Shown here: piece by piece, positions 183 through 38,966 of the stretch
Layout of the letters: each line of letters opens with the position of its first letter
How positions within the stretch are numbered: the stretch's first letter is position 1
Source: Marmoricola sp. OAE513
GTDB taxonomy: Bacteria > Actinomycetota > Actinomycetes > Propionibacteriales > Nocardioidaceae
Direction of reading: 5' to 3'
Assembly: GCF_040546585.1 (NCBI RefSeq)
Contig: NZ_JBEPOC010000001.1
Location: 186,001-250,000 of the forward strand
Length of the DNA: 64,000 bases
The notes under the pieces: generated by a model
Databases searched by the model: none
What the model was told of the DNA's origin: nothing
Seen by the model: the letters and a program-made list of their open reading frames with translations, nothing else
Translations under genes and position numbers: made by a program

Positions 183-836
183 ATGGCTGAACTCCACTTC
201 TTCACCGGCACGATGGACTCCGGGAAGAGCACGCTCGCGCTGCAGACCAACCACAACCACGCGGCTCGTGGTCGGATCGGCCGGATCTTCACCACCCACG
301 ACAGGGCCGGCGAGGCCATCCTCTCCTCACGCCTCGGACTGGAGCACGACGCCCTCGAGGTCACGCCTGACTTCGACTTCTGGCACTACGTCGTGGACTC
401 CTTGACGCACGGCGCCCGGATCGACTTCCTGATCTGCGACGAGGCCCAGTTCTACGCCCCCCGCCAGATCGACCAGCTCGCCCGCGTCGTCGACGAGCTC
501 CAGATCGACGTCTTCGCGTTCGGCATCATGTCGGACTTCCGGACCGAGCTGTTCGACGGATCTCGGCGTCTGGTCGAGCTCGCCGACCGCACCCACGTCC
601 TCCAGGTCGAGGCGCTCTGCTGGTGCGGGAAGCGCGCGACGCACAACGCGCGCACCGAGAACGGCGAGATGGTCACGGAGGGCGAGGTCATCGTGGTCGG
701 GGACGTCGACGCGCAGGACGTGGAGCCGGCGGAGGTCGCCTACGAGGTGCTGTGCCGCCAGCACCACCGTCGTCGGATGACCGCAGCGCGTGCGCAGGCC
801 GTCTCCATGGTCAGCGAGCCCCTGCCCTTCAGCTGA
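183..836 (+). CDS. tdk: thymidine kinase (type II)
   Basis: Phosphorylates thymidine with ATP in the cytosol (pyrimidine salvage). The 217-residue protein opens MAELHFFTG and has the Walker A loop GTMDSGKST at residues 9-17, the catalytic Glu in CDEAQF (about residue 87), and the zinc lasso formed by CWC plus CRQHH near the C-terminus. Length and motif order fit the type II (TK1-like) family. I chose ATG 183 because the family usually begins there. ATG 165 is in frame, adds MAQSSP and has a GAGAGG sequence upstream, so it remains possible. The gene is divergent from the rhodanese gene and convergent with the sulfotransferase-like gene across the repeat array. Confidence 0.93.
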   Translation: MAELHFFTGTMDSGKSTLALQTNHNHAARGRIGRIFTTHDRAGEAILSSRLGLEHDALEVTPDFDFWHYVVDSLTHGARIDFLICDEAQFYAPRQIDQLARVVDELQIDVFAFGIMSDFRTELFDGSRRLVELADRTHVLQVEALCWCGKRATHNARTENGEMVTEGEVIVVGDVDAQDVEPAEVAYEVLCRQHHRRRMTAARAQAVSMVSEPLPFS

Positions 837-841
837 CCTCC

Positions 842-1119
842 CGCCGACCGGGCACAGATGTCCCAGCCCAACCCGCCGACCGGGCACAGATGTCCCAGCC
901 CAACCCGCCGACCGGGCTCAGATGTCCCGCCCCAACCCGCCGAGCGGGCTCAGATGTCCCAGCACGTCGGGACATCCCAGACCTCTCGGCGTCACCACGC
1001 GGGACATCCCAGACCTCTCGGCGTCACCACGCGGGACATCCCAGACCTCTCGGCGCCACACGGTGGGACATCCCAGACCTCTGGGCGTTACACGGTGGGA
1101 CATCCCGGACCTCTCGGCG
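842..1119. repeat. phased array of nine 32-bp repeats, four forward and five inverted
   Basis: The spacer between tdk and the next gene is almost entirely repeats. Each unit carries CGCCGA, nine variable bases, then GATGTCCC. Forward copies start at 842, 874, 906 and 938. Inverted copies (GGGACATC, nine bases, TCGGCG) start at 969, 1001, 1033, 1065 and 1097. The period is exactly 32 bp within each orientation. The two sets face each other across eight bases (961-968), making a dyad centred near 964. Because 32 is not a multiple of three, the array does not encode a repeated peptide. There are no unique spacers, so it is not CRISPR. Function unknown; protein binding or a 3'-end role are both open. 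Confidence 0.9.
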
Positions 1120-1126
1120 TGACGGG

Positions 1127-2269
1127 TCACTCCGGGGGCGTGCGCTCCGCCAATGCCTCGCGCCAGCGGGGGGTCAGCGGGATCATCCGGCCGAGGTCCG
1201 CGATCACGGCATCGATCTTCTTCGGGCGGGCCGACGCGTCCACGTCGAGCTCGCGGGCGGTCCGGTCCCACAGGGCATCCGCGGCGTCCTTGACGGCGTG
1301 CTTGTCCGGGTCGGCCGCCTTGCGCGCCAGCCGGGGCAGCGACGCAGGAACCGGCAGCGCATCCAAGGAGCCGTGCACCTCGTAACCGCCCGCGGTGATC
1401 GCGTCCCTGATCCGCTGGTTCGAGGCTCGCGCGAACTCGGCCGCCCTGCGGTCCAGCGCGGGCTTGCCCTCGGCCTGACGGCGTGGGGTGAGCGCGTCCC
1501 AGACCAGCGGCCGCAGACCGATTCGGTAGACCGGCGCGGGGACACCCATGAGGTACGGGTTCAACCGGCGCATCACCTCCGCGCTGGCGTAGCCGAGCGA
1601 GGAGTTGTCGAAACGGTGCTGGACGTCGACGGCCAGGCTCGGATCCACCCCGATCGCGCCGGCGAACCGGTTCCAGAGCTCCTCCTTCGGAGCGGTCCGG
1701 TCCGGTGTCGTGATCACGTCGAGCTTGCCGACGCCGGGGTGGGTTCCCCAGCGCTCGAGCATCAGGTCGACCCGCTGGGCCCGGGTGTAGCCCTTGGCAG
1801 CGTGGGTGTTCGCGTCGTCGCGCTTCTGCCGTGACGGGTCGATCCGCTGCAGGTACGTCGACCACGGATCCACGCCGAAGCGCCGTACGTAGGACTGCCA
1901 CTGGGCGGGGATAGCGGCGAACTGGTCACGGACCGTGAGGACGACCTGCACGTCCATGCCCTCCAGCGGAGCCATGAAGGCGTCGACCTGGTGGCGCTTG
2001 GCGAAGCTCATGAACTCCATCGAGACGATCGCGGCCTCGCCGTCGAAGTCCCGGGCCTCCTGGACCAGCGCACGCCACTCGTCGTGCCTCTCCGGCCGTT
2101 TCGGCGTAGCCAGCACACGCTTCACCGCGCTGACCTGGGCCGGGTAGGACTTCGCGAGGAACAGCAGGCCGGCGCGCTCGTGGATGTCCGCCGTCCAGTA
2201 CAGGACGGACTGGACGAAGCTCGTACCCGTCTTCATCCCGCCGACGTGCAGCACGATCCGGTCAGCCAT
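1127..2269 (-). CDS. sulfotransferase-like protein
   Basis: A 380-residue protein beginning MADRIVLHVGGMKTGTSFVQ. The KTGTS loop directly after a first beta strand matches the 5'-phosphosulfate binding loop of PAPS-dependent sulfotransferases, and VSMEFMSF followed by VVLTVRDQ resembles the later PAPS-binding strand (serine and arginine). This suggests transfer of a sulfate group to an unknown acceptor, but the rest of the sequence is not one I can place in a characterised subgroup. The start at 2269 is chosen because the motif begins five residues after it; upstream in-frame codons give low-quality sequence. It has no close operon partner: 141 bp separate it from the upstream gene. Confidence 0.65.
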   Translation of the reverse strand: MADRIVLHVGGMKTGTSFVQSVLYWTADIHERAGLLFLAKSYPAQVSAVKRVLATPKRPERHDEWRALVQEARDFDGEAAIVSMEFMSFAKRHQVDAFMAPLEGMDVQVVLTVRDQFAAIPAQWQSYVRRFGVDPWSTYLQRIDPSRQKRDDANTHAAKGYTRAQRVDLMLERWGTHPGVGKLDVITTPDRTAPKEELWNRFAGAIGVDPSLAVDVQHRFDNSSLGYASAEVMRRLNPYLMGVPAPVYRIGLRPLVWDALTPRRQAEGKPALDRRAAEFARASNQRIRDAITAGGYEVHGSLDALPVPASLPRLARKAADPDKHAVKDAADALWDRTARELDVDASARPKKIDAVIADLGRMIPLTPRWREALAERTPPE

Positions 2270-30469: not shown

Positions 30470-31858
30470 TCAGTCCAGGTAGTCGCGCAGGACCTGCGAA
30501 CGGCTCGGGTGCCGCAGCTTCGACATCGTCTTCGACTCGATCTGACGGATCCGCTCGCGCGTGACGCCGTAGACCTTGCCGATCTCGTCCAGCGTCTTGG
30601 GCTGACCGTCGGTCAGACCGAAGCGCATGCTGACGACGCCGGCCTCGCGCTCGGAGAGCGTGTCGAGGACCGCGTGCAGCTGCTCCTGCAGCAGCGTGAA
30701 GCTGACCGCGTCGGCCGGGACGATCGCCTCGGAGTCCTCGATCAGGTCGCCGAACTCGGAGTCGCCGTCCTCACCCAGCGGGGTGTGCAGGGAGATCGGC
30801 TCACGACCGTACTTCTGGACCTCGATGACCTTCTCGGGGGTCATGTCGAGCTCCTTGGCGAGCTCCTCGGGCGTGGGCTCGCGGCCCAGGTCCTGGAGCA
30901 TCTGCCGCTGGACGCGGGCGAGCTTGTTGATGACCTCGACCATGTGCACCGGGATGCGGATGGTGCGAGCCTGGTCGGCCATGGCGCGGGTGATGGCCTG
31001 ACGGATCCACCAGGTCGCGTACGTCGAGAACTTGTAGCCCTTGGTGTAGTCGAACTTCTCGACCGCACGGATCAGACCGAGGTTGCCCTCCTGGATCAGG
31101 TCCAGGAACAGCATGCCGCGACCGGTGTAGCGCTTGGCCAGCGAGACCACGAGTCGCAGGTTGGCCTCCAGCAGGTGGTTCTTGGCCCGCTTGCCGTCGT
31201 CGGAGATCCACTCCAGCTCGTCGAGCATCTTCGGGCTGATCTTGCCGCCCTTGGCCAGCTTCTCCTCGGAGAACAGTCCGGCCTCGATCCGCTTGGCGAG
31301 CTCGACCTCCATCTCGGCGTTGAGGAGGGGCACCTTGCCGATCTGCTTGAGGTAGTCCTTGACCGGGTCAGCGGTCGCACCGGCGACCATGACCTGCTGG
31401 GCAGGCTCGTCGGTCTCGTCGGCCGCCGAGACGGTGAACGCCGACTTCTCGTCCTCGACGATCGTCGGGTCGGCCGCGACGTCGGCCTCGAACTGCTCGT
31501 CCGAGACGTCGGGCAGGACCTTCTTGCCGTCAGGACCGATGACCGCAACAGCCTCCTCCACAGCGGCGGCCTTCTTCGCGGCGGACTTGGCCGGAGCCTT
31601 CTTCGCCGGAGCGGCCGTCTTGGCGGGGGCGGCCGTCTTCGCTGGCGCAGCGGTCTTCGCCGCAGCAGCCTTCTTCGCGGACGCAGCCTTCTTCGCCGCA
31701 GGAGCCGCCGCCTTGGTGGCCGGGGCCTTCTTGGCTGCGGGCTTGGCGGGAGCCTTGTCAGCAGCCTTGGCGGTGGTCTTGGCAGGTGCCTTCTTCGTCG
31801 CGGCCGGCGAAGCCTTGGAGGCGGACTTCTTGGTCGCGGTGGACGAGCTCGAGGACAC
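30470..31858 (-). CDS. sigA: principal RNA polymerase sigma factor
   Basis: A 462-residue group 1 sigma factor. After a low-complexity Lys/Ala/Pro-rich N-terminus (about residues 10-100, many AAKK and PAKT repeats) come an acidic stretch, region 1.2 from about residue 164 ([17 protein letters not shown]), region 2 ([33 protein letters not shown]) and region 4 ([20 protein letters not shown]). It directs polymerase to -10 TANNNT housekeeping promoters. The N-terminal region seen ahead of the Lys-rich stretch in Streptomyces HrdB is missing. GAGAGG upstream supports GTG 31858. Near parE and parC as in Streptomyces. Confidence 0.95.
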
Positions 31859-38930: not shown

Positions 38931-38966
38931 ACTAGGAGGCGGACTAGGAGGCGGACTAGGAGGCGG
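38931..38966. repeat. three perfect 12-bp tandem copies at the 3' end of the DUF4192 gene
   Basis: ACTAGGAGGCGG is repeated at 38931, 38943 and 38955. On the coding strand each copy supplies an in-frame TAG, so the gene ends Ala-Ser-stop and two further identical stops follow. Confidence 0.85.

Follow-up and report, generated by a model that had tools for sequence, protein, structure and literature searches.

The nine-unit array and its dispersed relatives

Within the window (the whole stretch of DNA analysed, 64,000 nucleotides), nine repeat units lie between two convergent genes. The layout given in the first-pass annotation, in which facing forward and inverted sets meet at an eight-base centre, was borne out as four forward and five inverted 23-bp units (842–1119) around an 8-bp centre, and the exact 32-bp period claimed for each set held for the forward and the inverted units alike. 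The features are listed below.

183..836, + strand, thymidine kinase (PF00265; Pfam E 1.7e-21), left neighbour, outside the system
842..864, + strand, forward unit F1, outermost, beginning 5 bp past the thymidine kinase stop
874..896, + strand, forward unit F2
906..928, + strand, forward unit F3
938..960, + strand, forward unit F4, innermost
961..968, no strand, 8-bp centre between the facing sets
969..991, − strand, inverted unit R1, innermost
1001..1023, − strand, inverted unit R2
1033..1055, − strand, inverted unit R3
1065..1087, − strand, inverted unit R4, departing by one base (CGCCCA)
1097..1119, − strand, inverted unit R5, outermost, ending 7 bp short of the convergent gene's stop
1127..2269, − strand, right neighbour gene, outside the system, no Pfam family above cut-off

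The pattern CGCCGA-N9-GATGTCCC was exact in eight of the nine units, the exception being R4, the fourth inverted one. Tandem Repeats Finder scored the two sets at 213 and 229. No Rfam match at gathering score was obtained in the window, which ruled out a known RNA family as the identity of the array. The product of gene 1127–2269 is presumably sulfotransferase-like, an assumption made solely from reading its N-terminal GMKTGTS motif. This gene, which has no Pfam match, separates the array from a phosphodiesterase gene that directly follows thymidine kinase in at least 12 of 23 relatives, as judged by eye. Downstream of thymidine kinase in three array-less relatives (L091, L092, and L093), intergenic repeats resembling GTTTCGACAAGCTCAACCA were seen.

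The first-pass annotation had treated the array as a stand-alone element; it proved to be part of a dispersed family, and units of that family also stand on both sides of one predicted nuclease gene. In the 3.89-Mb window genome (G000), 65 exact pairs of the form GATGTCCC-N24-GATGTCCC were found, compared with none for the reversed-pattern control, and the core CCGANNGGN5GATGTCCC occurred in 96 copies clustered along the chromosome. Such clusters of a conserved 23-mer across the chromosome ruled out a random minisatellite or a coding repeat. A second genome of the genus, G012, held 44 exact core pairs, and the remaining 22 of the 24 genus genomes held none. The search for core and spacing in relatives, suggested at first pass, did not turn out as anticipated: the exact core pair was confined to 2 of 24 genus genomes, whereas the 32-bp architecture was present, with different 3' halves, in 18 of 24. 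The latter count came from the pattern CGCYGASNNGKC-N20-CGCYGASNNGKC, which is blind to the 3' half and yielded, for example, 95, 62, 48, 42, 42, and 25 pairs in individual genomes; its control gave one match across all 24.

By weight matrix, 53 unit clusters were delimited, 27 in G000 and 26 in G012, in 49 regions around exact core matches, a count that would miss any cluster lacking the exact core. For 257 units the consensus was CGCCGAGCGGGCGCAGATGTCCC (35.8 bits), with variable 9-bp spacers. Neither a GTAG nor a CGTC tag was present at the consensus ends, and no unit-wide palindrome was apparent on inspection. Wherever both orientations occurred, the forward units lay on the left and the inverted units on the right, facing inward; some clusters had a single orientation only, and no diverging neighbour units within 200 bp were found among the 53 clusters. 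The exact repeat pair was absent from viral contigs (0 matches).

Only 3 of the 26–27 array places per genome were common to G000 and G012, as judged by several shared flanking genes. At one locus (L025:4018-4753), a YqeY-like gene was enclosed by seven forward units on one side and four inverted units on the other, indicating that the arrays are able to enclose unrelated genes.

Placement and spacing of the arrays

Among the 53 array regions, 27 lay between convergent, 19 between codirectional, and 7 between divergent genes. Elsewhere in the same loci, 40 of the 311 remaining pairs of adjacent genes were convergent (odds ratio 7, p 3e-9). Genes were taken from a codon-usage caller, one contig-end region was dropped, and one cluster was counted as two. 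On stop-codon sides the median distance to the array was 1 bp, with 58 of 73 at no more than 7 bp (overlaps included), compared with a median of 42 bp on start-codon sides; at L050, L051, and L062 the stop codon lay inside the outermost unit. The preference for convergent ends may reflect tolerance rather than aim, because such gaps should be promoter-free.

Orthologous sites differed in the presence of arrays. The site of L036 in G019 had no array and only 4 bp between two stops, and that of L030 in G016 had no array and 8 bp. At the site of L020, an ordinary GC-rich inverted repeat in G012 took the place of the array in G000. This presence and absence shows that arrays come or go. Among 54 array blocks, inspected by eye with few empty sites compared, no target-site duplication or fixed boundary was evident.

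The spacing of units was regular. A distance of 32 bp separated 92 of 93 pairs of neighbouring forward units and all 83 pairs of neighbouring inverted ones (175/176). Innermost facing gaps clustered, with some exceptions, at 7–8, 16–19, and approximately 27–29 bp plus multiples of 32. Across the family, a centre of 7–8 bp was the most frequent, followed by one of 16–18 bp. A period scan from 4 to 20 bp over 67 centre gaps (40 from G000 and G012 and 27 from eight further genomes) peaked at 10.55 bp with a vector length of 0.74. For the 48 gaps outside G012 the vector length was 0.67, a value equalled in none of 20000 sets randomised modulo 32. A gap rhythm of about 10.5 bp combined with 32-bp spacing is the trace expected of proteins on one face of duplex DNA, and the putative protein-binding array on one helix face proposed at first pass is supported by both the 175 of 176 neighbours at 32 bp and the rhythm of the centre gaps.

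Individual units of 37 arrays were compared for similarity at six variable positions. Agreement was 0.63 between facing partners, 0.59 between non-partners of the same array, 0.60 between units of different arrays, and 0.77–0.81 between tandem neighbours. As tandem neighbours were the most alike, the units appear to have spread by tandem duplication. Facing partners agreed no better than units of different arrays, which indicates that no base-pairing constraint acts on them and disfavours an RNA hairpin with covarying arms. Nested matching, outer with outer and inner with inner, was seen at L041, L045, and L059, contrary to the trend; it could have arisen by template switching or by conversion across the palindrome.

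These data bear on an element acting in RNA at the 3' end, that is, a bidirectional terminator or an RNA-stabilising hairpin of convergent genes. The tight apposition to stop codons would fit such a role, as would the ordinary GC-rich inverted repeat found in G012 at the one place where G000 has an array. However, 26 of the 53 arrays were not between convergent genes, 7 of them being between divergent ones, and the element specific to convergent genes suggested at first pass was not upheld. In addition to the lack of a base-pairing constraint, no site with the GC stem and trailing T run of an intrinsic terminator was found in window positions 600–1400, and helical phasing is meaningless for RNA. 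This explanation is considered very improbable.

A bracketed, predicted AbiEi-nuclease gene and its matching repeats

At the same chromosomal place in G000 and G012, a gene was found in the order forward array, gene, inverted array. In the window genome it is the following feature.

G000:C1:1347035-1347979, AbiEi-nuclease gene of the window genome, 314-aa product

The neighbours of the bracketed gene in both genomes are taken to be lysS and coaX. The protein is predicted to consist of an AbiEi-like DNA-binding region (approximately residues 13–178) and a C-terminal Vsr-like PD-(D/E)XK nuclease domain. PADLOC AbiEi profiles span residues 14–178. Pfam support for the predicted domains was weak: among 22 aligned members, AbiEi_4 matched 18 (E ≤0.01), MTES_1575 14, DUF559 8, and AbiEi_1 6. 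In the window-genome protein AbiEi_4 barely passed its cut-off (25.4 vs. 25) and MTES_1575 failed (21.1 vs. 38.2); between the G000 and G012 proteins, DUF559 exceeded the cut-off solely in that of G012. A Transposase_20 match in 1 of the 22 members (E 0.0041, weak) was taken as chance. The structure model of the protein had a mean pLDDT of 31.7, and a PDB search returned no solved relative.

Residues E203, D236, E247, H254, D262, and R265 were invariant in the 22 aligned members, and D249 was nearly so, L119 being the exception seen. The catalytic residues presumably lie among D236, E247, D249, E203, and H254. The conservation of these nuclease-type residues suggests that cutting is part of the cycle. 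The best matches in G016 and G019 (L134 and L135) had degenerate nuclease residues and no flanking units, and the 32-bp pattern occurred as 0 pairs in the first of these genomes and 1 in the second.

Between G000 and G012 the protein was 63.4% identical, compared with 79.6–92.0% for seven other shared genes, apart from one of the seven, a 69-residue fragment at 100%; on the basis of this one genome pair, the gene evolves faster than its neighbours. Flanks of the homologous genes fell into few orthologous places, one of them common to nine genomes, and for this reason the genes look resident. By Pfam, the homologs neighboured genes for triosephosphate isomerase with 6-phosphogluconolactonase, an Era-like GTPase, undecaprenyl diphosphate synthase, isopropylmalate synthase, and a glutamate synthase-like oxidoreductase. 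At one chromosomal place the repeat sequence differed between species. The idea that phages or plasmids carry the gene was rejected: at E 1e-10, no phage record and no plasmid-sized record contained it, and the one record from a plasmid collection (36.6% identity over 54% of the protein) was 11.85 Mb long. A second homolog in the window genome (G000:C1:3319849-3320727, L138) had a repeat of its own, CGCCGACCCGGCAGCAATGTGCGC, on both sides; at least one scattered pair with a unit nearly the same as this repeat was found (G000:C1:276538).

Bracketing was evaluated at 30 homolog loci of the genus, 28 of which had both flanks. At 20 of the 30, comparison of the left flank with the reverse-complemented right flank gave a match scoring at least 14 and consisting of family-type units. 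With true gene ends, the reversed control reached this value at 0/30 loci and the direct orientation at 2/30 (L115 and L120); a 14-base match at L134 was excluded, not being a family unit. Units on both sides were recognised by pattern at L125, L140, and L141, giving 23 of 30 bracketed loci, spread over several chromosomal places. Of the others, L133 and L136 lacked one flank at a contig end, and L130, L131, L132, L134, and L135 had both flanks and no units; all seven were low-scoring best matches of their genomes. Periods were mostly 32 bp, with 21–22 at L115 and L142, 33 at L129, and 42 at L120. The first 12 bases of the unit mostly fit CGCYGASNNGNC, and the last 11 varied between loci.

Outside the genus, an inverted match of at least 14 was observed at 16 of 23 loci, every one of them from a different genus within the same family as the window genome. 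Two reversed controls reached 14 at 1/23 loci (15 bases), and the direct orientation at 5, one of which was a contig-end artefact. The single locus from another family showed no such match.

The assignment of scattered units to their nearest gene-flanking array was examined in 12 genomes with a complete unit listing and a flanked locus, G000 and G012 being left out; the first units listed away from the gene, at most eight per genome, gave 85 units. The nearest array belonged to the unit's own genome for 66.0 of 85 (ties shared), compared with a mean of 4.7 and a maximum of 30.2 in 2000 label shuffles. The 3' half alone gave 60.5 and the 5' half alone 20.8 of 85. These figures supersede an earlier, looser selection (72 of 87; halves 67.0 and 20.9; shuffled mean 5.2, maximum 24.25), which included five hand-picked G000 units, an extra G007 flank unit, and units of G003, G009, and G013 that were not strictly the first. 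Exceptions were G010 and G014, with own-genome matches of 0.5/8 and 0/3, respectively; their cognate gene is possibly a different paralog or has disappeared. In G007, two of three repeat families matched bracketed genes (L117 and L139), and the third matched a pair of units lying 120 bp upstream of another homolog.

Repeat abundance followed the presence of the gene. In a survey of the order (293 genomes), at least three 32-bp pairs were found in 30 of 89 with a homolog (E 1e-40) versus 1 of 204 without, and at least ten pairs in 23 and 0, respectively. Within the family the corresponding values were 30/84 and 1/39 (p 3e-5), the p-values being only a guide since genomes are not independent. 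The reversed pattern gave 19 single matches over the 293 genomes. Fewer than three pairs were present in 59 of the 89 homolog-bearing genomes, and some loci use other periods; G243 had five pairs and no homolog at E 1e-40. In three genomes from other genera of the family (G251, G059, and G283), the 5' half can be palindromic (CGCCGACTCGGCG), so that both strands match the pattern one base apart.

A proposed cycle and its relation to known systems

At a probability of about 0.7, the window array is read as a non-autonomous member of a dispersed family of AbiEi-nuclease binding arrays that spread between genes. Binding, cutting, and the route of spread are steps that we infer. The AbiEi-nuclease protein would bind each 23-bp unit on double-stranded DNA, and units 32 bp apart, together with facing units at phased gaps, would assemble into one nucleoprotein complex. 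Nuclease activity would then release or copy array blocks, which would come to rest in intergenic positions, those directly after stop codons being the best tolerated, and the units would afterwards duplicate in tandem.

Alternatively, the arrays may serve the cell in an architectural or regulatory capacity, such as chromosome organisation or the insulation of convergent genes, with recombination spreading them, selection keeping them, and the nuclease being used rarely or otherwise. Homologs at few orthologous places beside housekeeping genes, a conserved unit with a free spacer, helical phasing, and enrichment at convergent ends would all agree with such a function. It is harder to reconcile with just 3 of 26–27 array places per genome common to G000 and G012, with a repeat sequence that changes between species, and with invariant nuclease-type residues; we regard it as doubtful, though the most plausible of the alternatives.

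Duplex binding and a joint complex, as proposed for the spreading arrays, are inferred from the 23-bp inverted, phased units described here combined with the binding sites of AbiEi proteins. For AbiEi proteins that have been characterised, the sites are 23-bp inverted repeats with 3 or 13 bp between them, and binding is accompanied by bending (PMC7319586). The present system shares with the AbiE type IV toxin–antitoxin systems described there an AbiEi-like N-terminal half and inverted repeats of 23 bp whose gaps differ by one turn of the helix. In contrast, a nuclease domain is fused here, and the sites are found genome-wide and on both sides of the gene. No AbiEii (DUF1814) toxin gene was detected in 10 flanking frames of 6 loci (7 other families, 3 unmatched).

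The same background raises the question of operator arrays only, in which AbiEi-type autoregulation sites would be accompanied by scattered copies forming a regulon. AbiEi and Rv2827c recognise 23-bp inverted repeats within the promoters of their own genes (PMC7319586), and one array here does lie upstream of the gene's start. Arrays also stand behind the gene's stop, however. Contact with a stop codon is usual among the scattered ones, and 27 of 53 have a stop on either side, a position in which a promoter would not be expected. This explanation appears improbable.

As for the nuclease half, MTES_1575 is a Vsr-family nuclease domain according to PMC3710099, and the likeness of the present protein to such domains consists of weak MTES_1575/DUF559 profile matches and conserved D, E-x-D, and H residues. 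No paper linking MTES_1575 or DUF559 domains to repeats was found in the literature searched.

In function, the nearest kind is the REPIN-RAYT system. RAYT genes lie between inverted REPs with which they co-evolve; they are fast-evolving and predict REP abundance (PMC2817692), and RAYTs are single-copy (PMC3116915). Several likenesses were found: a chromosomal enzyme gene between inverted repeats (PMC2817692, PMC3116915, PMC3733652), here at 23/30 loci; the same repeats scattered intergenically, often facing and favouring gene ends; co-divergence of repeat and gene, with abundance following the gene except here in G010, G014, and G243; and a gene evolving faster than its neighbours. The differences concern the enzyme, which in RAYTs is of HUH/Y1 type and here AbiEi-like with a predicted Vsr-like PD-(D/E)XK domain; the units, which in REPs are palindromes tagged with GTAG/CGTC and here an untagged, non-palindromic 23-mer; and the form of the DNA, exact 32-bp phasing and a helically phased centre pointing here to double-stranded DNA and not to single-strand hairpins.

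The Y1/HUH tyrosine transposase (PF01797) was found in 0 of 24 genus genomes, with 5 of 14 control genomes positive, and its absence from the genus genomes ruled out RAYT-driven REPs. The system would work like REPIN-RAYT but, having no Y1 enzyme and no tagged palindrome, is not a member of it.

MITEs are short non-autonomous elements with inverted ends that are missing from orthologous sites. The arrays resemble them in being short and non-autonomous, with inverted ends and orthologous sites that lack the element. They differ in having multi-unit arrays as ends, in that no DDE transposase is implicated, and in that no target duplication was seen by eye. MITE-like remnants of an unknown transposon, with the nuclease gene as a passenger, would account for presence and absence at orthologous sites, for the facing ends, and for the lack of a Y1 transposase in the genus genomes. 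The supposed passenger, however, would have to be the same protein family at several unrelated places, each time with a matching repeat, and this origin is judged highly improbable.

TIGR-Tas systems, as described in PMC12045711, are similar in their constant repeats and 9-nt variable spacers near a nuclease gene. They have two alternating 8–12-nt repeats and a Nop-domain protein (PMC12045711), in contrast to the single 23-mer and scattered arrays observed here, and a Nop domain was absent among the 5 Pfam families matched by any of the 22 members.

No report of an AbiEi-nuclease repeat system was encountered in the literature searched, which excludes most subscription journals and bioRxiv, and the enzyme-and-repeat system looks like one unreported so far, comparable but unrelated to REP/RAYT. 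It is set apart as a new kind because it fails one defining feature of each known kind tested to a verdict; classing by function alone would group it with REPIN-RAYT. The wider claim, an unrecognised enzyme–repeat class in one actinobacterial family in which resident AbiEi-nuclease fusions each spread private phased arrays, is put forward at only slightly better than even odds.

If true, a REP-like lifestyle (one enzyme, its own scattered repeats, long residence) arose again with an unrelated enzyme, and why bacteria keep such sequence populations would become a comparative question. It would also provide a role for part of the AbiEi_4/DUF559 proteins, explain lineage-specific intergenic repeats of this actinobacterial family, and offer many natural protein–site pairs for studying the evolution of DNA specificity. 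The constant 5' half and re-coded 3' half would record a DNA-binding specificity changing together with all its sites.

Other repeats were recorded in the course of the analysis. A match in a Candidatus Aminicenantes MAG (L065:121-206), with palindromic GGGGACAAGGATGTCCCC likewise at 32-bp spacing, was rejected as a family member, as its repeat differs and is palindromic. Elsewhere in the window, a further tandem repeat of 18/36 bp was located at 31595–31707, and at 38931–38966 ACTAGGAGGCGG is repeated in three perfect copies.
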